From Entophlyctis helioformis (Eukaryota > Chytridiomycota > Chytridiomycetes > Chytridiales > Chytriomycetaceae): a stretch of 64,000 bases of DNA. Positions within the stretch are counted from its first letter, which is position 1, and each line of letters starts with the position of its first letter. Both the position numbers and the translations under genes were made by a program. The stretch spans positions 107,985 to 171,984 of the forward strand of contig JAHLKH010000041.1 of assembly GCA_025526915.1 (NCBI GenBank), read 5' to 3'. Positions 35,809-64,000 of the stretch are shown here, in pieces. Below the pieces are notes generated by a model. The model was given only the letters and a program-made list of their open reading frames with translations. It did not search any database and was not told where the DNA came from.

Positions 35809-35959
35809 GTTTGCTGTCCGAGCGGGGAGAAGCCGCCCGTTTGTGTTTGTTTGTCGGTCGGTCGACCGTCGGGCTTGGCCGCAATCACGAGATTGTTGGT
35901 CGGACGAGACGCAGGCAAGCGGCAGACGAGACGAGAGCGAGAGCGAGACGAGAGCGAGC

Positions 35960-38900
35960 ATGACGCAGATGGAGAAGCTCGCCTTCAAGGTGGCTGCGTG
36001 CACAGGCTACGAGGACCGCCATCCGCCCGACGAGCTGCTGGTCGACAAGCACACGCCGATGGCCGTCGGATGGCAGAGCCAGCGGTGCGTTTGTCTGCGT
36101 CTGTCTGAGTCTGTGGTTGTGCATGCGTCTGTGCGGATGTGGATGTGGATGTGGTTGTGGTTGTGGTTGTCGATGGACGGATGGATGGATGGTACCAGCA
36201 GCATCTGGCCGCGGCATCTGGCCACTGACGCTTGTCGCTGCGCAGGTTCTGCACGTTTCCGCAGGAGCTTGTGCTTGCGCTGACGCCCGGCGTGTGCCGA
36301 GTGCGCAAGCTGCAGCTGCTCATCCACCACTTCAAGATCCCCACGCGGGTGTCGGTGCATCTGGCCACGGTGCCGCTGGTCAAGACGTGGGCCGGGCTGG
36401 GGCCGGCCTTTCTGGACTCGATCGACTTTCGCAACATTGGGTGCGCATCTGGCTGCCGTCTGGCTGCCGTCCGTCGGTCCTACTGACACGCTGCTGCGTC
36501 TGCCGCAGATACGTCTCGCTCAACGACAATGTGGCCAATGCGTACAGAGCACGCGAGCTCAAGACCATCCATCTGGACGCCGACGCCAATCTGGTCAAGC
36601 TGGTGCTGCACAAGCCGCATGTGAATGCCCTCAATCTGTACAACCAGGTTGGCCTCGTGGCCGTCAACATCTTGGGCGAGGTCGTCGAGTCCGAGACGCT
36701 GGTCATGCGTCTGTCGCAGGCCAGCAGCAGTGGCGGCAGCAGTCTTGGCGGCATAGCGAGCATCGGCACGTCTGGATGGGTGGGTCTGTTGAGGGGATGG
36801 CGTTTGGCGGCTGGCTGACGGGCTGACGGCTGACGGGCTGACGGGCTGGCTTGGTACTCTTGGCACTCTTGGCACTCTGGCGCATAAAGGATGTGGACGA
36901 GTCGCGCGGTCTCTCCAAGGCGATCCTGAGAGGCGTACTGGACAAGTCGATCATCGATGCGCGGACAGCGACGGAGATGGATCTCGCGTATTCGGTCGAC
37001 CAAGATCGGCAGGTTGCTCGGATAGCTGCTGCTATCCTGCGCGCCAAAGACCAAGCGGTGCACAGTGGGTGGTTTGATGGATGGTTACGGGGAAACGACA
37101 CCTGCCCTGCTGACTGACTGGCATGCGTGCACAGATGAGCAGTACTCGGATGCAAGAGATCTCAAGCAGCTGCATGGGCTGTATCTTCAAGTAGGCATTC
37201 ACACAGACGCAACTGTCTGCACTTGGATATCTTGCTTACAACCCGACAGGCAGGTGCCGAGATTGCACGTCTCGAGACCAAGAAGCACGAGGCCGCACAA
37301 GCCGAAGACTACGTTGCTGCCGACCACTATCAGGCAAGATGCGGCCCGCCACTGATTGTTTCCGCTCCTCTTCATACTGACTCGGCTTCAACAGCACAAG
37401 ATCGAAGGCATGCGGCAGGTGCTGAGGTCGCAGACGCTTGCGACCGGATACACGCTGGAAGACGGAGAGCTGTACAAGGTGCCGCCGCCTGATCTGGATG
37501 CACAGCTGCAAGAAAAGCCGCCATCGCCGCCTATATCCCCACACACCGGTTTACGCAAGCCTGCACAGCCTGAGCCCTCTGAAGTACTGCATCATCTTCC
37601 ACAGCTGCAGCAGACTGCGCATCCATTGCCTGAGCGGTCTGCATCACCGCCCATACCGACCATCCAGAAAGCAGCTGCAGCCGCAGCAGCACAGGCAGCA
37701 GCACAGGCAGCAGCACAGGCGACCACTGCCGCTGAATCTGCGAGGGACGACGCCGGCGACACCGACCCCGCCAATGCAGGATCGCCATACTCAGACTCGG
37801 CGTCACTGGCAGATATCGGCACACCCGATCCGCTCTCGGACGCCCAGCACAGCCAGTACGCACTGGCTGTCGTCCTGTTTGGCGCGGACCTTGTTGCGCG
37901 CGTGCTGAGTCGTCAGTTCCGCCACCGCGAGCAGGGGCTCGTGGACCTGCGATCAGCCGTGCAGGCATCGGCGACCACACCGCAAGGGGCCAGCACGGAT
38001 ACGGTCAAGGCGTCGATGATGCTTGTCGGCGCTGTGCTTGACGACCCGCGAGAGCGTGTGAGCGTGCTGGCCGTTTCGGTGTTTGACAGCGTGATGGGTG
38101 AGTCGGCCGTCTCGTGCAAGGGTCTGTCATGGACAGAGCGCACAGGTTCTGACACGCTGGATGGGCTGTGTAGGACTGGTGGAGAGGTCTGGTATGGACA
38201 AGGCGGCAGTCATGCCAGCGCTTGACGAGCCGTTTGCGATGCTGCTGGCACAGGCTAGCGACACCAACCCACGCGTCAAGAAAGCATGTCTGGACGCGGT
38301 GCAGACGTGTCTGACTGCCTTTCACCGGGAACCGGCCAGTCTGCTGCCTGTGCTGTTGCGGCCAATTGGCAGCGGCAAGGGCGTGGTTGTGCACCACCGG
38401 ATTATACGCACGCGGCTGGATGTGCTGCTTGGTGCAGTCAATGACTATGGTCTTGATGACGGCGGTGGCGGCGGTGCCGCACGCGGCCGCGTTGGTCTGA
38501 TGTCCAAGGTACGGCCCGCCTTCCAGCAGCTCTGCTTGGTTGCTGATGCATGGGCTGACGACGGATAATGGGCATAGGATGTCATGCGGTTCATCAAACC
38601 CTACACGGAGCACGTCAACAACGATGTGCGGGACGTAGCGTTTTCGATTGCGGCTGCTGTTGGGCAGATTGTCGGGCCGGACCGCGTGCTCCATGATCTC
38701 AAGGACCTGCGCGAGTCGCAGCTGTCGGTGGTCAAGAAGCGCATGCCTGATGCAGGGCCTGGCGTTGGCGATGGCGGGAAAGGCGGCAAGCAGCGCGATG
38801 GCGGGATTCCACGACTCATGACTGGCGACCCTGCTGCTGCTGGTGGTGGTGGTGGCGGCGGCGGCGGCGGCAAGAAGAAGCTTGCTGCGCCACCTGCGTC

Positions 38901-43629: not shown

Positions 43630-46600
43630 ATGACGCATCTGCTCGTGTGGGGCGCTGCCGGCGACGGCCAGCACGGCACGGGCGCCACCGACAACGCTGC
43701 GTCGCCGCGCCCGCTGCCGTTCTTTGCAGACGCCCGCCTGTCGCTGGCTGCGCTGGCCGTGGGCAGGCACCACGTTCTGGCGCTCGTGAGTCGCCGTCCT
43801 GTTGCTTCCGTCTGCCTCTCGGCTTGAACTGAACCCTTGCACATACGCTCGCACGCTCGCGCAGGTCGACAGAGGCGCCGAGCGGGGCCTGCTGTACTCG
43901 TGGGGCTCCAACGACCACGGCCAGCTGGGCCACTGCGGCCGCAGGCTGCGGCCGTCGCCGCTGGCCGCCCTCGACGCTACCTCGGTCGTCGCCATTGCGT
44001 GCGGCGAGTCCCATTCGCTCGCCGTCGATGTGCTCGGCAGGCTGTTTGCCTGGGGCTCCAACAGCCACGGCCAGCTGGGCATTCCCTCGCCGTCTGCACC
44101 ACCACCACCATCGACACTACCACAACCATCGTCACCACAACCATCGTCCTTTGCCAAGCCAAAGCTCGTGCCCTTTCCTGGATCGCCAACAGCCAGCCGA
44201 GTGCGCATCACGCAGATCGCGGCCGGCCACCGCCACTCCCTTGCCCTCGACTCGCTCGGCAACCTGTGGTCGTTTGGCGACGCTTCCAACGGCCGCCTGG
44301 GCCGTCCCGTGGTGCACACGTCCGCCTCGTGCTCCCACTGCAGCGTCGAGTCCCCCGCTGAGCGGCCTGGCTGCATTCGATCCCTGTTCGGCCTGCCTAT
44401 CCGCAAGATGTCGTGCGGCGGCTCGCACTCGGCCGTCATTACCGTCTGTGGCTCCGTGTTTGTGTGGGGGATCCAACCAGTTTGGTCAGCTCGGCCTCGG
44501 ACACCGGCGCGACACGTATCTGCCGGAACGCGTGCCCATGATGCGGGATCTGGTCGCCGTCGATGTGGACTGCGGCGAGGACCACACCGCCATTGTCACG
44601 GACTCCGGGTGCCTGTTTGTGTTTGGGGCTGGCTCCTATGGCGAGCTTGGCCATGGCAACAGTGCACACGTCGATCAGCCGATGCAGGTCCAGGAGCTAC
44701 TAGGGTCCACAGTCGAATCGGTTGTCTGCGGGCGGCGCCATACGATTGTGCGGCTTGCTCAACCGCCGCAGCCTTGTTTGGCGGGAGGCCAGCTGCATCC
44801 GATGTGGTGCGCGTTTTTGGGCTCAACAGCTCTGGCCAGCTTGGTCTTGGGTCATTCACATCCGCATCTGTCCCTGTACGACTGCATCTTCCCATGCAAG
44901 GCATGGTCGTCGTTTCGGGACACAGCGACACCTGCTTCGCCATGCCGTCACCACCATTGCCTTCGCCCTCGTCATTGCCACAGTCTGGCACGGTTGCGTC
45001 CATCTTTTCCTCGCTCGCGTCGCTCAATGGCGCGTTTCTTGAACTCCCGTTCTCCAAGCCTGCGCTCTCCGTGCATCCTTTCATCGACTTTCCTGCCGTC
45101 CACGCCGTTTTTGGTACACAATCACCGTCAACACCAACAGATACAACGACAGATGCCGATTCTGACGTGCTCGTGCCGCTGATTTCGCGTCTGGTCAGCA
45201 GCATTCGACATGTCCATTCCAGCCACCCCGAAGCCCTTCGCGCCGTTTTTCTTGTCCTTGCCATTCCTGCACTCCACTCGGCCGGCGACCTGTCCAAAGC
45301 CATGCTGCATGTCGTCACGGATCTATTTGGCGCACTGAGCCAACTCTCTGACAGCCAGTGGAAGCAGCTAGGCACATGGTGGCGGTCGGCAGCAGCACCG
45401 GTATCCACATCAACATCCACATCCACATCCACACCAGCATCGACATCGGCGGTCCATCTCAAGACTCACTTCGAGCAAACGATCCTGCTTGCCCACCGCG
45501 TCATCACCAACCATGTCAAGACCGTGCCAAACTCGACCTTGCAGCATATCCTGCCAACCGTTCAGGTGCTGGATCGCCTCTGGGCCATCAACAATCTCTC
45601 GTGGACCCTCGATCACAGCGGCATTGGCTGTGTCAAGTCTGCACGGATATTCCCACCAGCGACGCCGCCGCCGCCACCACCACCACGGTCCGCTGCCAAC
45701 TACTCCTCGTCATCCGCCTCGTCCACATCCATGGCGCCTGCCAGCCGGCCTGTTCTCGCGCCAGGCCCTTCGCCCGTCACGCTGACGCGTCCACGGATCT
45801 TCCAAAACGACGCTCTCTCGATGGCATTCGATGCCGTGGCCGGGTACATGTCGCTGTTTATGGACGGCTCGGGCCATGTCCACACGACCGCAACAACGAC
45901 CGCGACAATGACGGCAGCAACCACGACGGCGAGCGATAACAGCAGGATGCATGTGGCGCGGCTTCCCTTTTTGTTCAATGTAAATGCCAAGACGGCGCTG
46001 CTTGAGACGGACTTCCAGCGGCAGATGTTTGAGGCACAGACGCAGTCTCTCCTGTCGGCGCTGCAGACGCGGCTGTTTGGCGTGGCCGAAAACGGGGGTC
46101 TGGCCGAGAGCGGCGGCGGCGGCGGAGTCGGCCATCAGCCGTACGTGTGCATCCACGTGCGCCGGTCGCATGTTGTGCTGGACACGGCGTGTGAGTTGTC
46201 GGAAAAGAGGCTCGGCTCGCTCAAGAAGCCGCTCAAGGTCAAGTTTGTGGGCGAGGACGGCGTCGACGAGGGCGGTGTTGGCGTGGAGTTTTTCACGTTG
46301 TTCTGGGAAGCGGCTGTAGGCACAATGGACGTGTTTGAGGTGCTCGATGATGCCGATGGCGATGGCGGCGCTGACGGTGACGGCGACGCCTACGGTGCCG
46401 TGGAGCCTGCTGGAGACGGAGAGAGTGGCAAGGGGCTGCGGTCCATGTACGTGTGGTTCAACCCGGCGGCATCAGCATCACCGTCACAAGCAACGAGCGA
46501 GATGTACAACCTGGTCGGCCGCGTTCTGGGGCTGTCACTGTACAACGGCAGCCCGTGCCCCGTGTCGTTTCCGCCCATCTTTTTCCGACAGCTGGTGGGC

Positions 46601-47626
46601 GAGCCGGCCGACACGAGCCGGTTGGCTGACATGATGGCCGATCTGCGCGTGTTCCAGCCGCGAGTCGCACAGTCGCTGCAACAGCTGCTGGACTATCCAG
46701 GCAGCGATGTCCAGGACGTGTTTGGCCTCGACTTTACCGTCACATGCCGGGCATCTGGCGGGAAACGCCCGACGCAGGTGATTGAGCTTCAGCCCAATGG
46801 AGCGGACATCCCCGTGACGGCAGACAACAAGGCCGAGTATGTGAGGCTGTTTGTCAAGTGGCGGCTCTACGACAGCGTGTCACATGCCATGGCCATGCTG
46901 CGGAAGGGATTCGACGAGATTGTGCGCAGTGGCGGTCATGTATTCGAATCATTTACCTCGGCAGATGTCGGGCACCTCATGGCTGGCAGCCAGCATTTCG
47001 ACTTTCGCGACTTGGAGAAGGGGGCGCTATACCGCGAGCCATACCACGCGCGGCACCCCGTCATTCGGCGGTTCTGGACGGTTGTGCACCAACTGCCGGC
47101 CGACCTGCAGCGGCGGTTCCTGCGGTTTGTGACGGGCACGGAGCGCGTGCCGCCGGTGCTTGGACTCAAGGGCGTTGGGCTGTGTATCCAGCAGAGCGGC
47201 GTGGACGAAAGTGCGTCGAGCGGTGATGGTGGTCGTGGCGACGATGAAGGTGATGAGGAGTTGGTGGAGGGTGATGACGAGGCAGAAGGCGAGGGCCAAG
47301 AGGCAGGCTCACGGAAGCGGAAACGCGGACGTGATGACGGCGAGGGCGGCGATGCCGATGCGGCGGAGAGAAACGGCGAGGAAGGCGTAGAGCAGCATGG
47401 GCAGCAGCAGCAGCGCGACAAGCGACAACGGACAGAGGATGGCGGGCACGGGGCATGGACGGGCAGGAGCCGACGAGCAGGACAACGCAGGCGTGGGCTG
47501 ATGCGGCTGCCAAGTGCGCACACGTGCTCGCATGTACTTGACCTGCCGCCATATTCAAGCGCCGCGGATCTGCGCGAACGGCTTGTGTTTGCCATGGCGA
47601 ATGCGGATGGCTTCTATCTTGCATAA
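43630..47626 (+). CDS. RCC1-repeat HECT E3 ubiquitin ligase (HERC-like)
   Basis: Two exons (43630-43785, 43865-47626) give 1,305 residues. RCC1 blades are clear: LLYSWGSNDHGQLGHC, CGESHSLAVD, LFAWGSNSHGQLG, AGHRHSLALDSLGNLWSFG, and in a second frame GSNQFGQLGLGHRRDTYLPE and VFGAGSYGELGHGN, then back in the first frame VFGLNSSGQLGLG. The frame leaves near 44468 (a run of five G) and returns near 44760-44800, so two compensating indels are likely. The HECT domain occupies the C-terminus (KVKFVGEDGVDEGGVGVEFF; SHAMAMLRKGFDEI; LPADLQRRFLRFVTG). The catalytic cysteine is in LPSAHTCSHVLDLPPY. An acidic-then-basic insert of roughly 100 residues separates the preceding strand from the catalytic loop. 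Confidence 0.9.
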
Positions 47627-48304: not shown

Positions 48305-49673
48305 TATGCCGCTTGCCCCATACGACGTCAACCTCAACGACATTCGTACCAACGACGACGTCAGCATGAACGATACTCTTACCAACGACGACATCAGCAC
48401 GAGCGACATTCTCGCAATCAACGACCCCAACGCCGTCGCTGTTGTCTGCAATGCCAACGGCGACAGCCTCACGTTCGGCCAGCTCGATGCTTGTGCCCGT
48501 GCTTTGGCTCCTTTGCTTGACCCGAACCAGCGAATGCTGGAATGCAGTGAATGCATCCGCTGCCCTTGCCCAGGCTCCTCACCGCCTTCCTCTGGCCATC
48601 TGCGCCGACGGCTCGACCGCCATGGCCGTCGCGGCTCTCGCCGCTGTGCATGCCAAGTGCACCGTTGTTCCTCTGCCGCCTGCTGGCTCGGTACCTGCTG
48701 CGGCCGAATTCGGTGCATTCGCTCTCAGCCCCGCTGAGACCCACCGGCTTGTCCGTGACGGCCTCGCCCGCACTCGGGCCAACGACACCAACGCCGTGCC
48801 AGCCAGCCTGGCCAGCAACAACTCGCTGTCTGGCACCCAGTGCGCCGCAGCTGACCCCCGCTCGGCCCCCGCTGATGCTGCCAAGGTGTGTGCCGCCTGC
48901 CTTGCCCGATTTTGTGCACCACCACCTGACATGACCGCATCCAAGCACGTCGGCGTGTTTGACGAGCTCGCGTTCAACCACAACGAGCTGCTCAACGCCG
49001 TGTCTGAGCGACTCCAGGCGGCCACGACCGTGCATGCCAGCGGTAATGCTGCCTTTGATGCCATCGTCGACTGTCTCGCCACGCTCGCCTCTGGTCGCAC
49101 TTTCGAGGCCGTCGAACCGGCCGATGCCGATGCTGCTGTTCCGCCCTGCCTGCCGATCTGGCGTACGCTCTTTGAAGTCGGCAAGCCTGCCCCCATCACG
49201 ACGGGTACGTTGGCTCGCTCTCCCATGTCGATTGTATGGCTGGATGCGTTCGGATGTACGACGGATCTGACTCGACCTGCCATGGCAGTTCACCAAGCTG
49301 CTGGTCATGACGTGAACAACGCTTGTGCCAACGAGCCTGCTCTCGGTCCTGCTGTCCAAGCTGCCGAAGCCACGCCGGATGCCATGCTCAAGAAAGGTGG
49401 TGTTGGTATTGGTATGGATGTGGGAGCGGATGGGAAGATGGAAAGGAGCGTTGGCAACGGCGTGGCTGCTGGCGGCTTGGACAGCGACAGGAACGATGAG
49501 CTCTTCGTCAAGAACGCCATCACGGCTGATGCCAAGAACGGTGAACTCGTGGATGTCCACCAAGTGACCATGCGAGCCCTCGACGACAGGATGGCGACCA
49601 ACGTCCCATCGGTTACCGCTGCTGTTGCTGCCATGCCTGCTATCGAGTCTGGCTCGCAGACATCGCAGAGCAC
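48305..49673 (+). other. NRPS start: degenerate adenylation-domain remnant
   Basis: The opening LTFGQLDACARALAPLLD and the later AVAALAAVHAKCTVVPLPPA match the N-terminal core motifs A1 and A2 of adenylation domains. SKHVGVFDELAFNHNELLNA resembles the region after A3. The ATP loop (A3), the A5, A7, A8 and A10 motifs, and a carrier domain are absent. A frame change near 48535 separates the two recognisable blocks. The rest is low-complexity Ala/Asp/Gly sequence. Substrate activation here looks impossible. Confidence 0.65.
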
Positions 49674-52600
49674 GTAAGTTCACTGATGGATTGGATGCAA
49701 GGATGGATGCGGCTGGCTGACTCTGTCCAAAAAGCATCAAAGCCGCGAAGAACGATGCAGAGAGGTTCTGGCGCGAGTATCTTGCCGGTGTTGCACCAGC
49801 CGAGCCACTCTCGCTTGGCAAGTGGGACTCTGAGGATGCCTCCGAGGACAAGCCGCTGTCGCTCGAGTGCAGCCTGCCGATGCCGCAGATGCAGGCGGCG
49901 TGCAAGGCAGCCGGCGTCACGGTCGCCGTGTTCCTCAAGGCGGCATGGGCCATGACGCTGCGCAAGTACACGCGATCCAGCGATGTCGTGTTTGGCCAGG
50001 TGCTGTCTGGCCGCGAGATCCCCGTTGCTGGTGCCGATCGGTGAGTCGCATGGTGTTGCTGCTGCTTGTGGCTTGTGTGTACATAGCTGTTGACTGACAC
50101 TCGCACATGCATCCCTGACTGCAGCATTGTTGGAGCCATGATCAACACCGTGCCGTGTCGAGTGCGCATCGAGTCGGATGGCACTGATGCAGCCGATGTC
50201 CTTCGTGCAATCCAGGCGGACCACGGACAGATGCTGCCACACTCGCACACGGGTCTGATCGACGTGCACAAGTGGAGCGGCCTCGCATCGGACGCCAAGA
50301 TGTTCCAGACACTGTTTGTGTTTGAGAACCTGCCAGAGGACGACCGTCTGTCTGGCGATGCCGGTGCCCAGCCGCCGTTCAGCCATGCTGCATCACAAGG
50401 ATCGTCGCGTTCATTGGCGTACACATTCGAGCTGATCATGTTCCCGAGTGAGAGTGACATTACGCTGACGGCACTGTACGACTTCTCGCAGCTGTCTCAC
50501 ACGCAGGCATCATCGATCCTGGCCGAGTTTGACTTCACGGTCGGCCAACTTGCAGCCACAGTCGCATCCAAGTCGTCGATCGAGCCGCTGTGGGATCTGT
50601 CGCCTGCCCAGATGCAGCTGCTCGATGCACACAGCTTCGGACCACTCGTGGATCTGCCATACGAGGCAGTGCACCACGGCTTCGAGGCACGCGCAGTGGA
50701 GCATCCCGACTGGACGGCCGTCGAGTACGGCGACGAGTCGATCACGTATGGCGAACTGAACAAGTGCGGCACTCTGCTTGCCAACCAGGTCGTCGCACTT
50801 GGCGGCATTGGTGTTGGCTCGCGCGTCGCAGTGATCATGCAGCGATGCCTCGAGTTCCCGCTTGCACTGCTCGCTGTGCTCAAGACTGGCGCGACGATTG
50901 TGCCGCTCGACTCCAAGTTCCCAGCCGAGCGCATCCGGTTCATTCTCGCCGATGCCGGCGTGACGGTTGTGCTGTCGACCGAGTCTGAGCGCGAGCGTAT
51001 CGACCAGCTGCAGCTGCCATCCACCGTGCAAGTCGTGATGGTGTCGGCCGATGCTCTCCAGACAGCCGCATCAACCAAGGACGTTGTCGCATTCCAGGCA
51101 TCGGCTGACAAGCAGCACGCCGCATCTCGATCGGATGTGTTCATGATCGTGTACACATCAGGCTCGACGGGCAACCCCAAGGGCGTGCCAGTGCCGCATG
51201 CAGGTGCCATCAACATCGTCAGCAACTGCAACCAGCGATTCGGATGCACCCAGGCATGCGAATGGCGCAGTTCATGGCAGTCGGATTCGACGGCTGCCAA
51301 TGGGAGACATGGTCCGCTCTGAACAACGGCGCCACTCTCGTGCTCCGAGGCAACGATACACTCGAGTTTGTGCAAATGGTCAACTCGATCTTCATCACGC
51401 CGACCGGTCTTGCCCATCTCGGATCACCCAGCCAGTTCCCGAACCTCAAAAGCGTTGCTGTCGGTGGAGAACGTTGCCCCAAGGAGCTCAAGGATCTGTG
51501 GGCTTCCAAGGTCGTCTTCAACAACGCATATGGACCGTCCGAGATCTCGATCATGTCGCACGCCGCCAAGCTCACTATTGGCGATGACATCACAATCGGA
51601 TCTGCCATCGACAACGTTTCTGCCTACATCCTGGACGAGCAGCAGCGCCGCGTGCCTGCTGGCGTGATGGGCGAGATGTTCATTGGTGGCATTGGTGTGT
51701 CGCCTGGATACATCAACCTTCCCGAGATGACGGCCGACAAGTTCCTGGCTGATCCGTTTGCAAGCGGCGAGTTTGCAGCCAAGTGTGGCAGCCGCATGTT
51801 CAAGACAGGCGATCTCGGACGCATGCTTCCCGACGGCCGCTTCGAGATCATTGGACGTCGCGACGACCAGGTCAAGCTCAAGGGATACCGCATTGAGCTG
51901 GACGAGGTTGCAGCCGCACTGATGAAGCATCCGCGTGTGACGGCGGCGGCAGCGATTGTCAAGGACAAGACGCACCTGGTTGGCTTTGTGACACCAGCCG
52001 ACATTGACGCCGACGAGCTGCGCGATGTGGTGTCGGAGCACCTGCCAGCGTACATGGTGCCGGCCGTGTTTGTGGGACTGGACGCCATGCCGACCAACGC
52101 CAACGGCAAGACGGACAAGAAGGCACTCGCCGCCATGGACGTTGTGATTGCAGTCGAGAGCCTGTCGAGCGATGCCGAGATGCGCATGGCAGCCGTGTGG
52201 GCCGATGTGCTTGGCGTGCCAGTCGAGTCGATTGGCCGCAACACGTCGTTCTTTGCACTCGGTGGCGACTCGATCTCGGCCATCAAGACGGCAACAGCCT
52301 GCCAGCGTGCGGGTCTGCCGATCACCGTGCCGCAGCTGTTCAAGACACAGACGCTGTCACGCTCGGCCGCACTCGCCGACACGGCAGCCTCATCTGGCGA
52401 CTCTGGCTCTGACAGCACGCAAGTGTGGCCGGCTGCCACTCTGTCGCAGGACACGCTCGATGAGATTGCCGCCGACTGGACCGACCGACTCGGAGTGGAT
52501 GCATCGACCATGGACGCATTCCCCGCAACGCCACTGCAGTCTGGCATGGTTGCAGCAACGATCCAGGATGCATCGGCGTATATCAACCAGGTGCCATTGC

Positions 52601-55600
52601 AAGCCACGCAGGCGATCGATGTGGCTGCACTCGAGGCAGCCTTCCGCACGCTTGTGCAGCACCACGCCATCCTGCGCACGTCGTTTGTGCCGACATCGAC
52701 TGCCGGCATTGTGCAGGTTGTGCGGCCGCACATCGACGAGCGGATGTTGCACTCGAGCGTGTCGCTCTCACAGCCGACATGGACATTGCCGCGTTCCTCG
52801 ACCAAGACAAGGCTCGTGGCTTTGCCGTCGGCGACAAGCACTGGATCCGCCTGTCGCTGCTGACCCACACGGACGACTCGCATCCTGTTGTTGTGCTCAC
52901 GATCCACCACACGCTGTACGATGGCTGGTCACTGCCGATGATCGTGGGAGACCTGCTTGCAGCGTATGGCGGCCACGCACTCGAGGAGCGACCGCATTCC
53001 GGTCTGTGGTGGACTACATCGCCGCACAGGATGCAGCCGCCACCGAGTCGTTCTGGCGCGAGTACCTTGCCGGTGTTGCACCAGCCGAGCCACTGTCGCT
53101 CGGCAAGTGGGACTCTGAGGACGCCTCCGAGGACAAGCCGCTGTCGCTCGAGTGCAGCCTGCCGATGCCGCAGATGCAGGCGGCGTGCAAGGCGGCAGGC
53201 GTCACGGTCGCCGTGTTCCTCAAGGCAGCATGGGCCATGACGCTGCGCAAGTACACGCGATCCAGCGATGTCGTGTTTGGCCAGGTGCTGTCTGGCCGCG
53301 AGATCCCCGTTGCTGGTGCCGACCGGTGAGTCGCATGTGTTGTTGCTGCTTGTGGGTTGTGTGTGCATGGCTGTGACTGACACTCGCACATGCATCCCTG
53401 ACTGCAGCATTGTTGGAGCCATGATCAACACCGTGCCGTGCGAGTGCGCATCGAGTCGGATGGCACTGATGCAGCCGATGTCCTGCGTGCCGTGCAGTCT
53501 GACCACGGACAGATGCTGCCACACTCGCACACGGGTCTGATCGATGTGCACAAGTGGAGCAGCCTCGCATCGGACGCCAAGCTGTTCCAGACACTGTTTG
53601 TGTTTGAGAACCTGCCAGAGGACGACAGTCTGTCTGGCGATGCTGCTGGCCAGCCGCCGTTCAGCCATGCTACACCCCAAGCATCGTCGCGTTCATTGGC
53701 GTACGACTTTGAGATTACAATCCAGCCGCTATCAAGTTGTATGATTCTTGAAGCCGCCTTCGACTTCTCGCAGCTGTCACACACACAGGCGTTGTCGATC
53801 CTGGCCGAGTTTGACTTCACGGTCGGCCAGCTTGCATCTGCAGTCGCATCCAAGTCGTCGATCGAGCCGCTGTGGGATCTGTCGCCTGCTCAGTCGCAGA
53901 CACTCGCCGAGTTTGCTCATGGACCAGTTGTGCCGCACACATACGATCTTGTCCACAATGCGTTCGAGGCGTGTGCTGCTCTCAACGCCGATGCTGTTGC
54001 TCTGGATGACGGCACCTCGACCGTCACATACGCACAGCTGGATGCACGCGCCAACCAGGTCGCTCATCTGCTGCAGTCGCACGGCGCCACTCGTGAGGTC
54101 TCTGTTGCGCTCATTGTGACGCGGTCGATCGAGTTTGTTGTTGGACTGCTCGGCGTGCTCAAGTCTGGTGCTGCATTCGTCCCCATCGAGGCATCCACGC
54201 CAGCCGACCGCATCAGCTACATGCTCGAGTCGTGCAACGTGGACCATGTGCTCACGACGGCTGCTGCAGCACACGCCGTGCCATCGACGTACGGCGGACT
54301 GGTGTTCCACCTGGACGCTCTTCCATCGGATCTGCCAACCACCAAGGCGGCCGAGATTGCGACGGCCGATGCACTCGCATACACCATCTTCACGTCAGGC
54401 ACGACCGGACTGCCCAAGGGAGTGCTGATCGAGCATGGCGACATCTACGAGCGCATTGTCCATCATCCACTTTTCAGTCATCTGGCACCAGGCATCAACA
54501 TGTCGCAGACATACACAGTCGGATTCGATGCCTGCCTCCAAGAAGTGTTCTCTGCGCTTACGACCGGAGCGACACTGCTCCTGTTCGCCAAGGAGTCTAT
54601 CCTGGACATGATTGCCAAGGCCAACGTGCTTTCGATCTCGCCAAGTGGTCTGCAGCATATTGCGCCACTCGACTACCCGAACTTGCAAGTGGTCCTTCTT
54701 GGCGCTGAGGCATCTCCACAGCCGCTCATTGATCTGTGGTCAAAGCACGTAAGGCTGTACTCGGACTATGGACCGACTGAGATTACGATTCTCGCAACAG
54801 CGACATCGCAGCTGCTGCCAGGATCGCATGTGACGCTCGGCAAGCCGCTTGCAAACACGCGCATCTACGTGCTTGACGACCAGCTGCGCACTGTCCCCGT
54901 CGGAATCAAGGGCCGTCTGTTCATTGGCGGTGTTGGCATTGCGCGCGGATACTTGAACCGTCCCGACTTGACAGCCGAGAAGTTTGTGGCGGACATCAGC
55001 CAGCCGGACACACGCATGTACGACACTGGCGACATTGGACGATGGAACGCCGACGGCCAGATCGAGTATCTCGGCCGCAGCGACGATCAAGTCAAGGTCA
55101 AGGGATACCGCATTGAGCTTGAGGAGGTGTCCAAGGTGTTGCAGCAGTGCGCAGGAGTGCAAGGCGTTGTGACGATGGTGCGCGATGGAGCGATTGTTGC
55201 GTTTGTGACACCGGCGAGTGTTGCTCTTGAGGCTGTGCTTGAGCACGCACACGGAAAGCTGCCGCAGTACATGGTGCCGTCCGCGATTGTGCTGTTGGAG
55301 ACGATTCCGATGAACGTCAATGGCAAGGTGAGCAAGCAGTGAATGCAGGCATTTGAGTGATGGTGACGAGGAAGATGACGCTGACACATGCGATTGATGA
55401 TGGCGGTTTGGGGTGAATGGCAGGCGGACAAGAAGGCACTCGCAGCCATGGATGTTGTGATTGCAGTCGAGAGCCTGTCGAGCGATGCCGAGATGCGCAT
55501 GGCAGCCGTGTGGGCCGATGTGCTTGGCGTGCCGGTCGAGTCGATCGGCCGCAACACGTCGTTCTTTGCACTTGGTGGCGACTCGATCTCGGCCATCAAG

Positions 55601-58600
55601 ACAGCGACAGCCTGCCAGCGTGCGGGCCTGCCGATCACCGTGCCGCAGCTGTTCAAGACACAGACGCTGTCACGCTCAGCCGCACTCGCCGACAAGGCAG
55701 CCTCGTCTGGCGACTCTGGCTCTGACAGCACGCAAGTGTGGCCGGCTGCCACTCTGTCGCAGGACACGCTCGACGAGATTGCCGCCGACTGGACCGACCG
55801 ACTCGGAGTGGATGCATCGACCATGGACGCATTCCCCGCCACGCCGCTGCAGTCTGGCATGGTTGCGGCGACGATCCAGGATGCATCGGCGTATGTCAAC
55901 CAGGTGCCACTGCAGGCCACACAGGCGATCGATGTGGCTGCACTCGAGGCAGCCTTCCGCACGCTTGTGCAGCACCACGCCATCCTGCGCACATCGTTTG
56001 TGTCGACATCGACTGCCGGCATTGTGCAGGTTGTGCGGCCGCACATCGACGAGCGTGATGTTGCACTCGAGCATGTTGCTCTCACAGCCGACATGGACAT
56101 TGCCGCGTTCCTCGACCAAGACAAGGCTCGTGGCTTTGCCATCGGCGACAAGCACTGGATCCGCCTGTCGCTGCTGACCCACACGGACGACTCGCATCCT
56201 GTTGTTGTGCTCACGATCCACCACACGCTGTACGACGGCTGGTCACTGCCGATGATCGTGGGAGACCTGCTTGCAGCATATGGCGGCCACGCACTCGATG
56301 AGCGACCCGCATTCCGGTCTGTGGTGGACTACATCGCCGCACAGGATGCAGCCGCCACCGAGTCGTTCTGGCGCGAGTACCTTGCCGGTGTTGCACCAGC
56401 CGAGCCACTCTCGCTTGGCAAGTGGGACTCTGAGGATGCCTCCGAGGACAAGCCGCTGTCACTCGAGTGCAGCCTGCCGATGCCGCAGATGCAGGCGGCG
56501 TGCAAGGCAGCCGGCGTCACGGTCGCCGTGTTCCTCAAGGCAGCATGGGCCATGACGCTGCGCAAGTACACGCGATCCAGCGATGTCGTGTTTGGCCAGG
56601 TGCTGTCTGGCCGCGAGATCCCCGTTGCTGGTGCCGATCGGTGAGTCGCATGTGTTGCTGCTGCTTGTGGCTTGTGTGTGCATGGCCCAATGACTGACAC
56701 TCGCACATGCATCCCTGACTGCAGCATTGTTGGAGCCATGATCAACACCGTGCCGTGCCGAGTGCGCATCGAGTCGGATGACACTGATGCAGCCGATGTC
56801 CTGCGTGCCGTGCAGTCTGACCACGGACAGATGCTGCCACACTCGCACACGGGTCTGATCGACGTGCACAAGTGGAGCGGCCTCGCATCGGACGCCAAGC
56901 TGTTCCAGACACTGTTTGTGTTTGAGAACCTGCCAGAGGACGACCGTCTATCTGTCGACGCTGCTGGCCAGCCGCCGTTCAGCCATGCTGCACCCCAAGA
57001 ATCGTCGCGTTCATTGGCGTACACATTCGAGCTGATCATGTTCCCGAGTGCAACTGGCATCAGCCTCACGGCACTGTACGACTTCTCGCAGCTGTCGCAC
57101 ACACAGGCATCGTCGATCCTGGCCGAGTTTGACTTCACTGTCGGCCAGCTTGCAGCCGCAGTCGCATCCAAGTCGTCGATTGAGCCGCTGTGGGATCTGT
57201 CGCCTGCTCAGATGCAGCTGCTCGATGCACACAGCTTCGGACCACTCGTGGATCTGCCATACGAGGCAGTGCACCACGGCTTCGAGGCACGCGCAGTGGA
57301 GCATCCCGACTGGACGGCCGTCGAGTACGGCGACGAGTCGATCACGTATGGCGCGATGGACAAGTGCGGCACTCTGCTTGCCAACCAGATCGTCGCACTT
57401 GGCGGCATTGGCGTTGGCTCGCGCGTCGCAGTGATCATGCAGCGATGCCTCGAGTTCCCGCTTGCACTGCTCGCTGTGCTCAAGACCGGCGCGACGATTG
57501 TGCCGCTCGACTCCAAGTTCCCAGCCGAGCGCATCCGGTTCATTCTCGCCGATGCCGGCGTGACGGTTGTGCTGTCGACCGAGTCTGAGCGCGAGCACAT
57601 CGACCAGCTGCAGCTGCCATCCACCGTGCAAGTCGTGATGGTGTCGGCCGATGCTCTCCAGACAGCCGCATCAACCAAGGACGTTGTCGCATTCCAGGCA
57701 TCGGCTGACAAGCAGCACGCCGCATCTCGATCGGATGTGTTCATGATCGTGTACACGTCAGGCTCGACGGGCAACCCCAAGGGCGTGCCAGTGCCGCACG
57801 CTGGTGCCATCAACATCGTCAGCAACTGCAACCAGCGATTCGGATGCACCCCAGGCATGCGAATGGCGCAGTTCATGGCAGTCGGATTCGACGGCTGCCA
57901 ATGGGAGACATGGTCCGCTCTGAACAACGGCGCCACTCTCGTGCTCCGAGGCAACGACACACTCGAGTTTGTGCAAATGGTCAACTCGATCTTCATCACG
58001 CCGACCGGTCTTGCCCATCTCGGATCACCCAGCCAGTTCCCGAACCTGAAGACAATCACCGTTGGCGGCGAAGCTTGTCCCAAGGAGCTCAAGGATCTGT
58101 GGCTGCCGTTTGTGACATTCCACAACGCATACGGACCAACGGAAATCTCGATCATTTCTCATATCCATCCGATGGACAGCGTATCCGACATTCATCTCGG
58201 TGGTCCCGTTTCGAACGTTTCTGCCTACATCCTGGACGAGCAGCAGCGCCGCGTTCCTGCTGGCGTGATGGGCGAGATGTTCATTGGAGGCATTGGCGTG
58301 TCGCCTGGATACATCAACCTTCCCGAGATGACGGCCTACAAGTTCCTGGCCGATCCGTTTGCGAGCGGCGAGTTTGCAGCCAAGTGTGGCAGCCGCATGT
58401 TCAAGACGGGCGATCTCGGACGCATGCTTCCCGACGGCCGCTTCGAGATCATTGGACGCCGCGACGACCAGGTCAAGCTCAAGGGATACCGCATTGAGCT
58501 GGACGAGGTTGCAGCCGCACTGATGAAGCACCCGCGTGTGACGGCGGCCGCAGCGATTGTCAAGGACAAGACGCACCTGGTTGGCTTCGTGACACCGGCC

Positions 58601-61600
58601 GACATTGACGCCGACGAGCTGCGCGATGTGGTGTCGGAGCACCTGCCAGCGTACATGGTGCCGGCCGTGTTTGTGGGACTGGACGCCATGCCGACCAACG
58701 CCAACGGCAAGACGGACAAGAAGGCACTCGCCGCCATGGACGTTGTGATTGTCGTCGAGAGCCTGTCGAGCGATGCCGAGATGCGCATGGCAGCCGTGTG
58801 GGCCGATGTGCTTGGCGTGCCAGTCGCGTCGATCGGCCGCAACACGTCGTTCTTTGCACTCGGTGGCGACTCGATCTCGGCCATCAAGACGGCGACAGCC
58901 TGCCAGCGTGCGGGTCTGCCGATCACCGGTGCCGCAGCTGTTCAAGACACAGACGCTGTCACGCTCAGCCGCACTCGCCGACAAGGCAGCCTCATCTGGC
59001 GACTCTGGCTCTGACAGCACGCAAGTGTGGCCGGCTGCCACTCTGTCGCAGGACACGCTCGATGAGATTGCCGCCGACTGGACCGACCGACTCGGAGTGG
59101 ATGCATCGACCATGGACGCATTCCCCGCCACGCCACTGCAGTCTGGCATGGTTGCAGCAACGATCCAGGATGCATCGGCGTATATCAACCAGGTGCCACT
59201 GCAAGCCACGCAGGCGATCGATGTGGCTGCACTCGAGGCAGCCTTCCGCACGCTTGTGCAGCACCACGCCATCCTGCGCACGTCGTTTGTGCCGACATCG
59301 ACTGCCGGCATTGTGCAGGTTGTGCGGCCGCAGATCGACGAGCGTGATGTTGCACTCGAGCGTGTCGCTCTCACAGCCGACATGGACATTGCCGCGTTCC
59401 TCGACCAAGACAAGGCTCGTGGCTTTGCCGTCGGCGACAAGCACTGGATCCGCCTGTCGCTGGTGGCCCACACGGACGACTCGCATCCTGTTGTTGTGCT
59501 CACGATCCACCACACGCTGTACGACGGCTGGTCACTGCCGATGATCGTGGGAGACCTGCTTGCAGCATATGGTGGCCACGCACTCGAGGAGCGACCCGCA
59601 TTCCGGTCTGTGGTGGACTACATCGCCGCACAGGATGCAGCCGCCACCGAGTCGTTCTGGCGCGAGTACCTTGCCGGTGTTGCACCAGCCGAGCCACTGT
59701 CGCTCGGCAAGTGGGACTCTGAGGACGCCTCCGAGGACAAGCCGCTGTCGCTCGAGTGCAGCCTGCCGATGCCGCAGATGCAGGCGGCGTGCAAGGCGGC
59801 AGGCGTCACGGTCGCCGTGTTCCTCAAGGCAGCATGGGCCATGACGCTGCGCAAGTACACGCGATCCAGCGATGTCGTGTTTGGCCAGGTGCTGTCTGGC
59901 CGCGAGATCCCTGTTGCTGGTGCCGATCGGTGAGTCGCATGGTGTTGCTGCTGCTTGTGGCTTGTCTGCATGCCTGTAGACTGACACTCGCACATGCATC
60001 CCTGACTGCAGCATTGTTGGAGCCATGATCAACACCGTGCCGTGCCGAGTGCGCATCGAGTCGGATGGCACTGATGCATCCGATGTCCTTCGTGCAATCC
60101 AGGCGGACCACGGACAGATGCTGCCACACTCGCACACGGGTCTGATCGACGTGCACAAGTGGAGCGGCTCGCATCGGACGCCAAGATGTTCCAGACACTG
60201 TTTGTGTTTGAGAACCTGCCAGAGGACGACAGTCTGTCTGGCGATGCTGCTGGCCAGCCGCCGTTCAGCCATGCTGCACCCAAGGATCGTCGCGTTCATT
60301 GGCGTACACATTCGAGCTGATCATGTTCCCAAGTGCAACTGGCATCAGCCTGACGGCACTGTACGACTTCTCGCAGCTGTCGCACACACAGGCATCGTCG
60401 ATCCTGGCCGAGTTTGACTTCACTGTCGGCCAGCTTGCATCTGCAGTCGCATCCAAATCGTCGATCGAGCCGCTGTGGGATCTGTCGCCTGCTCAGATGC
60501 AGCTGCTCGATGCACACAGCTTCGGACCACTCGTGGATCTGCCATACGAGGCAGTGCACCACGGTTTCGAGGCACGCGCAGTGGAGCATCCCGACTGGAC
60601 GGCCGTCGAGTACGGCGACGAGTCGATCACGTATGGCGAACTGGACAAGTGCGGCACTCTGCTTGCCAACCAGATTGTCGCACTTGGCAGCATTGGCGTT
60701 GGCTCGCGCGTCGCAGTGATCATGCAGCGATGCCTCGAGTTCCCGCTTGCACTGCTCGCTGTGCTCAAGACCGGCGCGACGATTGTGCCGCTCGACTCCA
60801 AGTTCCCAGCCGAACGCATCCGGTTCATTCTCGCCGATGCCGGCGTGACGGTTGTGCTGTCGACCGAGTCTGAGCGCGAGCGTATCGACCAGCTGCAGCT
60901 GCCATCCACCGTGCGAGTCGTGATGGTGTCGGCCGATGCTCTCCAGACAGCCTCATCAACCAAGGACGTTGTCGCATTCCAGGCATCGGCTGACAAGCAG
61001 CACGCCGCATCTCGATTGGATGTGTTCATGATCGTGTACACGTCAGGCTCGACGGGCAACCCAAAGGGCGTGCTCATGCCTCACTATGGCATCGTGAACG
61101 TCGCACTGTCTGGCCGTTCCGTATTTGGCGTTTCGCCACAGACTCGCATGGCGCAGTTCATGGCCATCGGATTCGACGGCTGCCAGTGCGAAATCTGGAC
61201 AGCGCTCTGCAATGGCGGCACGCTTGTACTCCGTGAGGATGATGCTTTCGCAACCATTGCCAAGGTCGACGCCATCATCATCACGCCTACTGGTTTGTCG
61301 CAGCTTGGCGACCCGTCCAACTTCCCTGGTCTCAAGTTTGTGAGCGTTGCCGGTGAGGCGTGTCCCAAGAGCTCAAGGATCTGTGGTCGTCCAAGGTCAC
61401 ATTCACGAACGCATATGGACCGTCTGAGATCTCGATCATGTCGCACGCCGCCAAGCTCACTGTTGGCGATGAGATCACAGTCGGATCTGCCATCGACAAC
61501 GCCTCGTGCTACATCCTCGACGAGCAGATGCGCCGCGTGCCTGCTGGTGTGATGGGCGAGATGTTCATTGGCGGCATTGGTGTGTCGCCTGGATACATCA

Positions 61601-64000
61601 ACCTTCCCGAGATGACGGCCGACAAGTTCCTGGCCGATCCGTTTGCGAGCGGCGAGTTTGCAGCCAAGTGTGGCAGCCGCATGTTCAAGACGGGCGATCT
61701 CGGGCGCATGCTTCCCGACGGCCGCTTCGAGATCATTGGACGCCGCGACGACCAGGTCAAGCTCAAGGGATACCGCATTGAGCTGGACGAGGTTGCAGCC
61801 GCACTGATGAAGCACCCGCGCGTGACGGCAGCCGCAGCGATTGTCAAGGACAAGACGCACCTGGTTGGCTTTGTGACACCAGCCGACATTGACGCCGACG
61901 AGCTGCGCGATGTGGTGTCGGAGCACCTGCCAGCGTACATGGTGCCGGCCGTGTTTGTGGGACTGGACGCCATGCCGACCAACGCCAACGGCAAGACGGA
62001 CAAGAAGGCACTCGCAGCCATGGACGTTGTGATTGTGTCGAGAGCCTGTCGAGCGATGCCGAGATGCGCATGGCAGCCGTGTGGGCCGATGTGCTTGGCG
62101 TGCCGGTCGAGTCGATCGGCCGCAACACGTCGTTCTTTGCACTTGGTGGCGACTCGATCTCGGCCATTCGTCTGGTTGCCAAGGCCAAGACCGCCGGCTT
62201 CGCCATCACCACTGCCCAGATCTTCAAGTCGCCCCGGCTGTCGTCGCTCACTACCGCCGCCAAGGTCGTTGCCACTGTCAATGCCGCACAGCTGTTTGCG
62301 CCAGTCTCTGGCTCTGTGCCCCTGACGCCTGTCCAGCACAAGTTCTTCAACCATCAGTGGCTGGACATCAACCACTTCAACCAAGGCTTTGTTGTCAAGC
62401 CTCGCGATGCTCTCGACGCTGCGTCTCTGCGCTCAGCCATCTCTGCACTTGCCACGCACCACGACGTGTTCCGCACACGATACACGCGCACCGTCGATGC
62501 TTCCTCTGGCACCGTGGCTTGGTCGCAGCACATCCTCGCACCCGACGCCATTCCCGCCGTCGATGTGCCGTTTGTGCCGCTCGCATCTGTCGACGACCTC
62601 GAGGCGCCGTGCGCAGCGTGCAGCAGTCGCTGTCCCTCACCGACGGCCCCGTCTTTGCAGCATCGCTGTTTGGTCTTCCTGACGGCACGCAGCGTCTGCT
62701 GTTCACAGCACACCATCTGGTCGTGGATCTCGTGTCGTGGCGCATCCTGCTGGACGACCTGCAGACGCTGCTGACTGGCGGCTCGCTGCCGCCCAAGACG
62801 CTCTCGTTCAAGGCGTGGTCGGAGCAGCAGACCGAGTTTGCGGCCCAGCTGAATGCTGCCAGCATTGCCAAGTGGGACGCATTCATGGGCCACGACGACG
62901 GCTTTGGCAAGCAGCCCGATCTGGCGTCTGCCGATGGTGCTTCGGTGGCATCCAAGACCACAACAGTCGCGGCATCGTGGATGCATCGATCACCAGCCAG
63001 CTGGATGCCGCCAACATGCCGTATGGCACCAACATCCAGGACATTGTGCTTGCTGCGCTCACACTCGCACTGGCGATGTGCGGTCGTCGGCAGACAGCAA
63101 CAGCAGCCACCAGCTGTGCATCGATCTCGAGGGTCACGGACGCGAGCCATGGACTGACGGTCTCGACGTCACCAACACGGTCGGCTGGTTCACGACGATC
63201 TACCCTGCCATGTTCACCGCGTCTCGCGAGTCGCACATTGGCGATGTGCTGCGGCAGGTCAAGCAGAAGCTGCGCAGTGTGCCGCACAAAGGACTGTCGT
63301 ATGGTGCCATCAAGCACCTTGCGCCATCCAGTGACGCCACGGCAGCCATCCAGTCGCATGCCGGCCACCGCGTGTCGTTCAACTACCTCGGCCGGTTCCA
63401 GTCTCTCGAGGGCGACGATGCGTTCTTTGCCATGGACACGACGCTCACTCAGGATTGGTCCGTCAGCCCAGACGACAAGCTGCTCCACCCGTGCAACATC
63501 AGCTGTCTTCACGATGGAGCAGATCTTGTGCTGGCTGTGACGTCCGAAGAGTTCATGATGACGGCAGAGATGCTCGAGTCGTGGACAGCGCAGTGGTCAG
63601 TGTGGATGCAGCGCATTGTTGCGCACTGCACAGACGCTGCGACGATCGGCGGTCGCGTGCTTGCCGACGTGCCGCTGCTGCCGTCCGAGGCTGCGCTTGC
63701 CGAGGCAGAATCCGAGGCGTTTGCTGTGCTTGGACTGCGGCCGGTGGATGTGGACGACATGTACCCGGCCACGCCGCTGCAGTCTGGCATGGTTGCAGCC
63801 ACGATCCAGGATGCATCGGCATATGTCAACCAGGTGTCAGTTCCAATGGTACAGCCGGTCGATGTGGCTGCACTCGAGGCAGCCTTCCGCACGCTTGTGC
63901 AGCACCACGCCATCCTGCGCACGTCGTTTGTGCCGACATCGACTGCCGGTATTGTGCAGGTTGTGCGGCCGCAGATCGACGAGCGTGATGTTGCACTCGA
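48305..64000 (+). CDS. multimodular nonribosomal peptide synthetase (3' end outside window)
   Basis: A single large NRPS gene, at least 15.7 kb. Visible order: degenerate A - half C - A1-T1 - C2-A2-T2 - C3-A3-T3 - C4-A4-T4 - E - C5 (cut by the edge). It is eukaryotic: introns at 49674-49734, 50041-50124, 53326-53407, 55328-55423, 56641-56724 and 59930-60011 all splice in phase. Core motifs repeat in each module: IVYTSGSTGNPKG (A3; A2 has IFTSGTTGLPKG), GDLGRMLPDGRFEIIGRRDD (A7), KGYRIEL (A8), NANGK (A10), FFALGGDSIS (T) and HHTLYDG (C catalytic). The product should be a peptide of at least four residues with one D-configured or epimerised unit. About 13 single-base breaks interrupt the frame. 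I chose ATG 48305 as the first in frame with the opening domain; an upstream exon is possible. Confidence 0.93.
49735..50560 (+). other. NRPS condensation domain, C-terminal half only
   Basis: Begins at FWREYLAGV, the middle of the condensation domain as seen in the complete copies, and runs through the intron at 50041-50124 to LTALYDFSQLSH. The N-terminal half with the HHxxxDG catalytic motif is missing; the exon start is joined by an intron directly to the degenerate A remnant. Confidence 0.8.
50590..52400 (+). other. NRPS module 1: A1 and T1 domains
   Basis: Full adenylation domain with A3, A5 (NAYGPSEIS), A7, A8 and A10, then the carrier serine in LGGDSIS. The pocket segment contains FDGCQWETW. 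A missing C near 51251, compared with the same site in module 3, breaks the frame. Confidence 0.9.
52420..55690 (+). other. NRPS module 2: C2, A2, T2
   Basis: C2 starts with PATPLQSGMV and carries HHTLYDG near 52905. A2 is a clearly different adenylation domain from the others (IFTSGTTGLPKG, pocket FDACLQEVF, SDYGPTEIT). It joins the shared carrier domain through a private 96-bp intron (55328-55423) placed exactly in the A10 motif (NVNGK|ADKKAL). Single-base deletions near 52744, 52992 and 53440. Confidence 0.9.
55730..58985 (+). other. NRPS module 3: C3, A3, T3
   Basis: The cleanest copy: apart from the intron at 56641-56724 it stays in frame from C3 to the carrier domain, and serves as the reference for the broken copies. 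Pocket FDGCQWETW is identical to A1. A stretch of about 170 bp around the A5 motif (58050-58225) differs from A1. One extra G at about 58927 breaks the frame at the end of T3. Confidence 0.9.
59030..62285 (+). other. NRPS module 4: C4, A4, T4
   Basis: C4 and the N-terminal half of A4 are almost identical to modules 1 and 3. From about 61070 to 61540 A4 diverges (LMPHYGIVNVALSGRSVFG, pocket FDGCQCEIW) and then returns to the common sequence at RRVPAGVMGEMF. Single-base deletions near 60167, 60287, 61370 and 62036. Confidence 0.9.
62310..63630 (+). other. NRPS epimerization (E) domain
   Basis: Follows T4. Opening PLTPVQHKFFNHQ, catalytic AHHLVVDLVSWRILLDDLQ (HHxxxD), then DLEGHGRE, NTVGWFTTIYPAMF, LSYGAIKHL and FNYLGRF, which are the E-domain signature blocks in their usual order. 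It should epimerise the residue added by module 4 to its D form. Three apparent single-base deletions (near 62610, 62978, 63075) split it over three frames. Confidence 0.9.
63680..64000 (+). other. NRPS condensation domain C5, start only
   Basis: MYPATPLQSGMVAATIQDAS marks the start of the next condensation domain, expected to be of the type that accepts a D-configured donor since it follows an E domain. The first 20 codons diverge from C2-C4 and the rest then becomes nearly identical to them. It runs off the window. Confidence 0.9.

Follow-up and report, generated by a model that had tools for sequence, protein, structure and literature searches.

Domain organization of the locus

The window, a 64,000 bp stretch of an Entophlyctis helioformis contig, carries on its forward strand the 5' part of a multimodular NRPS gene (48306-64000), recognized by domain matches and internal repeats. 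The last base of the window is the end of the contig, which is 171,984 bp long, and the NRPS array, which reaches that end, stops only because the contig does. Matches to the Condensation, AMP-binding, AMP-binding_C and PP-binding profiles recur in order along the forward strand, and this repeated, ordered series of C, A and T domains is that of a type I multimodular NRPS. An Rfam scan of the window gave nothing at the gathering score.

Exon 1 (48306-49673) is a degenerate A-like start region with one frame break, delimited by homology to contigs C4 and C100 from position 48312. Its start codon and the intron that follows (49674-49734) are predicted. No AMP-binding match was found in the window's own exon 1; its sibling on contig C41 has a T domain and, below threshold, an AMP-binding match (E 0.0046). 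Next is C1 (49760-50584, intron 50041-50124), a truncated domain of which only the part after residue ~180 is present, and then the A and T domains of module 1 (50645-52377), the C-terminal A subdomain included. C2 (52507-53866, intron 53326-53407) precedes the A and T domains of module 2 (53942-55690), whose A domain is of a second type, 36% identical to that of module 3. C3 (55820-57184, intron 56641-56724) is followed by module 3 A and T (57245-58979), with a block at 58048-58213 unlike module 1, and C4 (59109-60469, intron 59930-60011) by module 4 A and T (60530-62243), with a block unlike module 1 at 61074-61363. The array continues with an epimerisation (E) domain at 62603-63647 and the start of C5 (63756-63998), which is cut by the contig end and whose final 220 bp are of doubtful joining. 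Core motifs of the C, A, T and E domains, with the signatures HHxxxDG, TSGSTG, YGPTE, LGGDS and HHxxxDxxSW, are present in the exon translations, except that the C motif is absent from the truncated C1. HHLVVDLVSW, found in the translation of the E domain, has the form HHxxxDxxSW.

The first-pass annotation had described four near-identical C-A-T modules with introns, and an E domain, in a flagellated fungus. Four direct-repeat copies are indeed present, with start-to-start spacings of 3282-3318 bp (a period of 3.28-3.32 kb), but since C1 lacks its N-terminal ~180 residues the array comprises four A-T units, of which three belong to complete C-A-T modules, and the A domain of module 2 is only 60-61% identical to those of modules 1 and 3 over about 1.55 kb. 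The introns were borne out, each of the four C domains being split by an intron of 82-84 bp at the same place (4 of 4), as were the E domain and, by domain calling, the order of the C, A, T and E matches. The host agrees as well, a flanking gene being 99% identical to E. helioformis BC831DRAFT_454825. Synonymous divergence is low (dS 0.06-0.17 in the six comparable window pairs), as expected of an array said to be of recent origin or homogenised by gene conversion. The dN/dS of medians lies between 0.09 and 0.38 among copies, which shows, at the level of substitution ratios, that the copies are under purifying selection.

Each A domain in the window would load one amino acid, and the E domain would turn the fourth residue into the D form. 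A chain-release domain is not reached before the contig ends; an FSH1 domain beyond that end would release the peptide.

Gene family and contig ends

Condensation (C-domain) matches lie on 21 contigs of the E. helioformis genome, and mapping placed 35 A domains in 11 arrays; judged by these matches, the window array is one member of a large paralogous NRPS family. An FSH1 serine-hydrolase domain stands at the 3' end of all seven arrays that end inside a contig, the other four of the 11 being cut. The nucleophile elbow LLGFSQG is present in the FSH1 domain of six of these seven sibling arrays and was not found in that on contig C77, where every domain of the array is divergent. A classical thioesterase was rejected as the release domain: the single PF00975 match is on contig C257, where no NRPS match is listed. 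By hand count there are 18 distinct gap-free pocket codes of nine or ten letters, the one at C19:195486 being doubtful; substrate prediction from these codes assigned none.

At least eight frame breaks lie inside the domains of the window array, besides the one in exon 1, which was read by eye. There are 31 frame breaks in the 30.3 kb that lie within 5 kb of contig ends and 27 in the 75.4 kb further in; contig interiors have them too, though more rarely. For those of the window array, poor consensus close to contig ends is the probable cause. A reading in which the near-identical modules are largely artefactual, produced where the assembly stuttered or collapsed a few genes at contig ends, or in which the array is a decaying pseudogene, would account for this excess near ends, for an array that terminates at a contig end, for the truncated C1 and for the final 220 bp, in which the E domain runs into a kind of C domain that follows none of the seven other E copies. 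It is nevertheless improbable. The window modules differ from one another in A-core blocks and are therefore not mere stutter; the interior array at C41:34-44 kb has 0 frame breaks in 6.1 kb; dN/dS is well below 1; and proteins of Polyrhizophydium stewartii likewise have repeated modules. The module family is also found in contig interiors (C41:34-44 kb and C55) and in other species. For the window array itself the worry persists, because its frame breaks and final 220 bp resemble contig-end trouble. A haplotig is an unlikely explanation of the 97.8% copy on contig C65: the HECT flank, the one flank examined, has no second copy beyond a 60-base match, and C65 has an additional module.

Mosaic A domains

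The window modules are mosaic, being 94.9-97.4% identical outside and 57-61% identical inside sharply bounded A-domain blocks that span 166 to about 1,550 bp. The block score exceeded all 300 permutations in each of the five pairs tested (of six). C domains group by species (E. helioformis versus Polyrhizophydium) and A-cores do not: the number of species changes between E. helioformis and P. stewartii is one for C, two for the front of the A domain, six for the A-core and two for the back. A careful A-core tree gives six lineages for E. helioformis, of which at least four are forced, and a single clade occurs in 0% of 200 bootstrap trees; restricted to rows of E. helioformis and P. stewartii it requires five changes. 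The C77 array is one of the six A-core lineages yet is outside the C-domain set because its C domain is broken.

Species-wise C domains with mixed A-cores are the pattern predicted for homogenisation within species with exchange of A-cores. The DNA of the C and T domains and of the A frame would be kept uniform within a species by gene conversion or unequal crossing-over, and A-core blocks with the pocket residues would be exchanged between copies. Exchange on a uniform frame is proposed to let the peptides diversify while the scaffold stays fixed.

Alternatively, the modules of each species may have multiplied in a recent burst, with no ongoing conversion, and the uniformity would then reflect that burst alone, a serious possibility that falls short of being probable. 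Independent recent expansions would fit the species-wise C clades and the low dS, and passages of PMC3688495 report duplicated modules in aba1 and others; the A-cores, however, require more species changes than the C domains and the flanking A parts, and identity switches sharply within single A domains, which pure duplication would not give. A history in which modules were duplicated and then took up A-cores from older copies by recombination is hard to tell apart from conversion. Aureobasidin synthetase (aba1), whose A domains are stated to share over 95% similarity, and cyclosporin synthetase (simA) are, according to the same passages, also fungal and grown by module duplication; they are ascomycete systems, whereas in E. 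helioformis the homogenisation would extend over many arrays within a single genome and be accompanied by exchange of A-cores. In bacterial A-domain recombination, as described in passages of PMC9205934, the pocket-holding part of A is likewise swapped and the C-A frame kept, and homogenisation is named there as a confounder; those systems are bacterial clusters and the present one is an intron-bearing eukaryotic gene family.

Relatives in chytrids and Aphanomyces

The first-pass annotation held NRPS genes to be rarely described in flagellated fungi. That is true of the print record, Bushley and Turgeon 2010 (PMC2823734) calling them scarce in Chytridiomycota, and PMC7466969 speaking of few secondary metabolites in zoosporic fungi. 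The databases, by contrast, list relatives from Polyrhizophydium, Dinochytrium, Geranomyces, Spizellomyces, Zopfochytrium, Chytriomyces, Quaeritorhiza and Batrachochytrium dendrobatidis, among other matches. P. stewartii protein P0001 is ~44-71% identical to the E. helioformis genome, 67% in the best-scoring match, among the matches listed of a few hundred residues each; set beside the 99% match to E. helioformis, these values led to P. stewartii being rejected as the source organism. The window exon shares 50% identity with B. dendrobatidis protein P0007 over 88%. The B. dendrobatidis NRPS BDEG_03514, given as T-C-T-A-T-FSH1 in the same passages of PMC2823734, is like the sibling arrays a chytrid NRPS with an FSH1 ending; it has few modules, whereas E. 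helioformis has numerous arrays in which near-identical modules recur, along with introns, E domains and A domains of mosaic make-up. No NRPS words occur in the main text of the eLife chytrid atlas (PMC8887899), and, among the open-access papers listed, titles, abstract beginnings and passages yielded nothing on an NRPS expansion in E. helioformis or on a link to Aphanomyces.

A phylogeny against bacterial and fungal sequences, also proposed at first pass, gave a chytrid clade of 67 rows (support 97), with the 14 rows labelled bacterial, some of them from metagenome sources, outside. By their position in this tree, the window C domains are assigned to the chytrid clade of an FSH1-ended NRPS family. 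The Aphanomyces rows are nested among fungal rows in both kinds of C domain (clades 100/95 and 100/99), and proteins of A. stellatus carry an FSH1 match. The nesting suggests transfer of the NRPS family from chytrids to Aphanomyces, which is more likely the recipient than the source; the family would be old in chytrids. It is somewhat unlikely that chytrids and Aphanomyces each took the genes from a third donor, or that transfer ran from oomycete to chytrid. Such histories draw on the order of branching in the main 40-row C clade, the larger of the two kinds, which the tree does not settle, and on a sampling biased toward the query, with Dikarya rows left out. They agree poorly with the fungal rows that surround Aphanomyces in both C kinds, with the FSH1 endings common to Aphanomyces and chytrid proteins, and with identities of 28-38% for named bacterial matches against 37-54% for Aphanomyces among the matches listed, where Aphanomyces is the sole oomycete and the fungal holders come from several orders. 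The NRPS-like unigenes of A. euteiches (PMC2248709), likened here by description, belong to the same genus as the nested oomycete copies; in the passages available their best matches are to other organisms and no chytrid link is proposed.

Taken together, positions 48306-64000 are likely the 5' part of an E. helioformis multimodular NRPS from a paralogous family that is homogenised with A-core exchange, would release its product through FSH1 and has Aphanomyces as a recipient; the incomplete window array, its eight in-domain frame breaks and the truncated C1 count against this explanation, as do the rarer frame breaks inside contigs, the place of C77 among the six A-core lineages, the five changes of the restricted A-core count and the branching within the 40-row C clade. 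The chances are about even for the broader proposal that this chytrid lineage maintains, across the genome, a pool of exchangeable NRPS modules. Gene conversion would hold the DNA of C, T and the A frame uniform within a species, short A-core cassettes (about 170-440 bp) as well as entire A domains would pass from array to array, module number would change, and the same FSH1-ended gene type would have gone to Aphanomyces. The 21 contigs with condensation matches stand against the scarcity stated for Chytridiomycota in the passages of PMC2823734. If the proposal is true, such a module pool would give a eukaryote a natural means of evolving new peptides. The arrays themselves provide natural examples of the places where A-domain cassettes of eukaryotic NRPSs can be exchanged, a question of enzyme engineering. 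The Aphanomyces link suggests that a secondary-metabolite system was transferred between two aquatic, zoospore-forming lineages.

Organisation of the window array

The window (contig C41, 107985-171984, up to the contig end) carries the 5' part of a multimodular nonribosomal peptide synthetase (NRPS) gene on the plus strand (48306-64000), which the contig end cuts short. The first-pass annotation had ascribed this DNA to a zoosporic fungus, a call borne out by the flanking RCC1/HECT gene (43790-47623), which shows 99% identity over 99% to E. helioformis BC831DRAFT_454825. On the minus strand lie a match to the LKAAEAR family (34312-36006), which goes with cilia, and a PF04488 glycosyltransferase with a DXD sugar-binding region (5220-6422).

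As mapped with Pfam and local tblastn, the array runs on the plus strand from a start region (48306-49673) through a truncated condensation (C) domain, A-T, C-A-T, C-A-T and C-A-T-E to the beginning of a further C domain, where A, T and E are adenylation, thiolation and epimerisation domains; the four A-T units are termed M1 to M4. Four direct-repeat copies are spaced at 3282-3318 bp. The first C domain is without its initial ~180 residues. An intron of 82-84 bp (GTGAGT...CTGCAG) is found at an equal position in all four C domains of the window, and its junction words occur 19 times across the fetched arrays. No AMP-binding match was found by Pfam in exon 1 of the window; the exon is called A-like because it aligns at 93.8% identity (794 columns) with the start region of a sibling array at 34-44 kb of the same contig (C41). 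The sibling start region is a single frame with a sub-threshold AMP-binding match (E 0.0046, below the Pfam cut-off); next come a T domain (E 1.3e-10) and a complete C domain. The window and contigs C65, C4 and C100 lack T and the first half of C after the start region.

Adenylation cores and the surrounding frame

Outside the best block, module pairs are 94.9-97.4% identical, and the module introns are alike too. Within the block, identity is 59% over 166 bp for M1 and M3 (M3 58048-58213), 57% over 289 columns for M1 and M4 (M4 61074-61363), 60% over 435 columns for M3 and M4, and 60% (M1 and M2) or 61% (M2 and M3) over ~1,555 columns that make up the A domain of M2. The scan covered five of the six module pairs, all except M2-M4, and in each tested pair none of 300 permutations reached the block score. 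The low-identity blocks contain A-domain pocket residues, located by GrsA numbering. The pocket codes are DGWFAGAIMK (M1), DAQSLGDILK (M2), DGWFTGAIIK (M3) and, read by eye across two translated pieces, DGCISAAIMK (M4).

In the C-domain tree, 14 E. helioformis rows form one clade (100, starred), as do 59 Polyrhizophydium stewartii rows (100, starred), taken from 78 as those scoring >250 bits; the array on contig C77, divergent in all its domains, has a broken C and was therefore left out of this set. Two species changes are seen in the A front part and two in the A back part, in keeping with the two A types. Six changes between E. helioformis and P. stewartii are seen in the A-core, the inner part holding the pocket residues, in a set of 20 single-frame E. 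helioformis cores (from 35 A domains) and a random draw of 45 of 85 P. stewartii rows. A careful A-core tree of the same rows gave six changes between E. helioformis and all others, at least four of them forced by starred branches, and five when only the two species were counted; a single E. helioformis clade occurred in 0% of 200 bootstrap trees. C77 makes up one E. helioformis A-core lineage, and two lie within type 2, the kind found in M2. The nearest rival account of these patterns is recent duplication plus recombination. We read them instead as a frame that is probably homogenised within species, in which older A-cores would survive and be exchanged.

Among copies with 80% or more identity to the query (T 14/15, Cn 17/18, Cc 16/21, A 4/20, AC 18/26, En 7/7, Ec 6/6), median dS lay between 0.07 and 0.16 in T, Cn, AC, En and Ec and was higher in Cc (0.26) and A (0.28), and the dN/dS of medians was 0.09-0.38 across array parts, which indicates that the copies are under protein-level constraint.

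Sibling arrays and assembly quality

The Condensation family gave at least 118 six-frame matches on 21 contigs (counted by hand) of the E. helioformis genome. Eleven arrays on 10 contigs were read, comprising 35 A domains when broken and cut ones are included. In seven the 3' end lies within the contig, and each of these closes with FSH1, a serine-hydrolase domain; the other four are cut on the 3' side by the contig end. Genome-wide, 12 contigs have both FSH1 and NRPS matches and three more have FSH1 matches without NRPS ones, and the usual thioesterase family has one match, away from the NRPS arrays. The elbow LLGFSQG is present in 6 of 7 fetched FSH1 regions; a pattern search for it in the C77 region found nothing. 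The second array on C41 (L009, C41:34001-44000, minus strand) lies ~64 kb before the window start and consists of a start region, T, two C-A-T modules and FSH1, with 0 frame breaks in mapped domains. An alignment of 11,150 columns gives 97.8% identity between window 48797-59936 and C65, and the C65 array (C65:98001-127337, L027-L029) has one extra type-2 module, then E, two further modules and FSH1; module number varies between these near copies.

In-domain frame breaks numbered 31 in the 30.3 kb at most 5 kb from a contig end against 27 in the 75.4 kb further in. Introns may account for some of those scored in the divergent C that follows E. The count is 8 in 12.6 kb for the window array and 0 in 6.1 kb for the interior C41 array. 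After E, the window runs into the ordinary C kind, whereas the other E copies (7/7) lead to a different kind. Its final 220 bp (63780-64000) are 83-93% identical to the ordinary C of other arrays carrying that stretch, against 74% to C77. This ordinary C is possibly a chimeric contig end or possibly a real variant.

Relatives and earlier records

Relatives were sought twice with exon 56645-59011, using a longer length window the second time. Among the matches listed (best 120 of 7202 and best 120 of 1190) were P. stewartii, B. dendrobatidis, Dinochytrium, Geranomyces, Spizellomyces, Zopfochytrium, Chytriomyces, Quaeritorhiza, Calcarisporiella and at least five Aphanomyces species, and no protein named as E. 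helioformis. E. helioformis C domains are sister to those of Polyrhizophydium (Rhizophydiales), despite the placement of the species in Chytridiales by NCBI. A 2024 Batrachochytrium assembly paper (PMC11797018) uses E. helioformis JEL805 (Amses et al. 2022) beside Rhizophydiales genomes.

A C-domain tree of 88 rows groups 67 fungal and Aphanomyces rows in one clade (97, starred), leaving outside it 14 rows labelled bacterial, some of them from metagenomes, five rows of Dimargaris and its kin, and two chytrid rows on long branches. A careful 57-row tree, built after removal of five rows on long branches, the Dimargaris rows and near-copies and with three outgroup rows, split Aphanomyces between two C kinds, and in either kind it is nested in fungal rows (clades 100/95 and 100/99, both starred, the larger with 40 rows); the two groups were united in 0 of 200 bootstrap trees. 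Chytrid contamination of the Aphanomyces assemblies is unlikely, since contigs with relatives reach 512 kb, 795 kb and 4.1 Mb among the matches listed. At least two A. stellatus proteins have an FSH1 match. Our conclusion is that a gene carrying the two C kinds was probably passed between chytrid and Aphanomyces lineages; transfer from chytrid to Aphanomyces seems the more likely direction. The FSH1 elbow reads GFCLG in A. stellatus protein P0020 and GFSQG in P. stewartii protein P0005 and six E. helioformis arrays, and the nucleophile of P0020 has perhaps changed.

In excerpts from earlier papers, NRPSs are scarce in Chytridiomycota and a B. dendrobatidis protein has the order T-C-T-A-T-FSH1 (Bushley and Turgeon 2010, PMC2823734), B. 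dendrobatidis has 20 potential TycA-like matches (a 2022 paper, PMC9730576), and zoosporic fungi show a paucity of secondary metabolites (a 2020 paper, PMC7466969). Further excerpts report three NRPS-like unigenes, unrelated to those of Phytophthora, in the 2008 A. euteiches transcriptome (PMC2248709), module duplication in aba1 (PMC3688495) and A-domain recombination in bacteria (PMC9205934). The words NRPS, nonribosomal and non-ribosomal are absent from the main text of the 2018 Aphanomyces genome paper (PMC5907361). As far as the literature was searched, four features are apparently new: the scale of NRPS expansion, a uniform frame joined to roaming A-cores in a eukaryote, the regular occurrence of FSH1 at array ends, and Aphanomyces copies nested in fungal rows.
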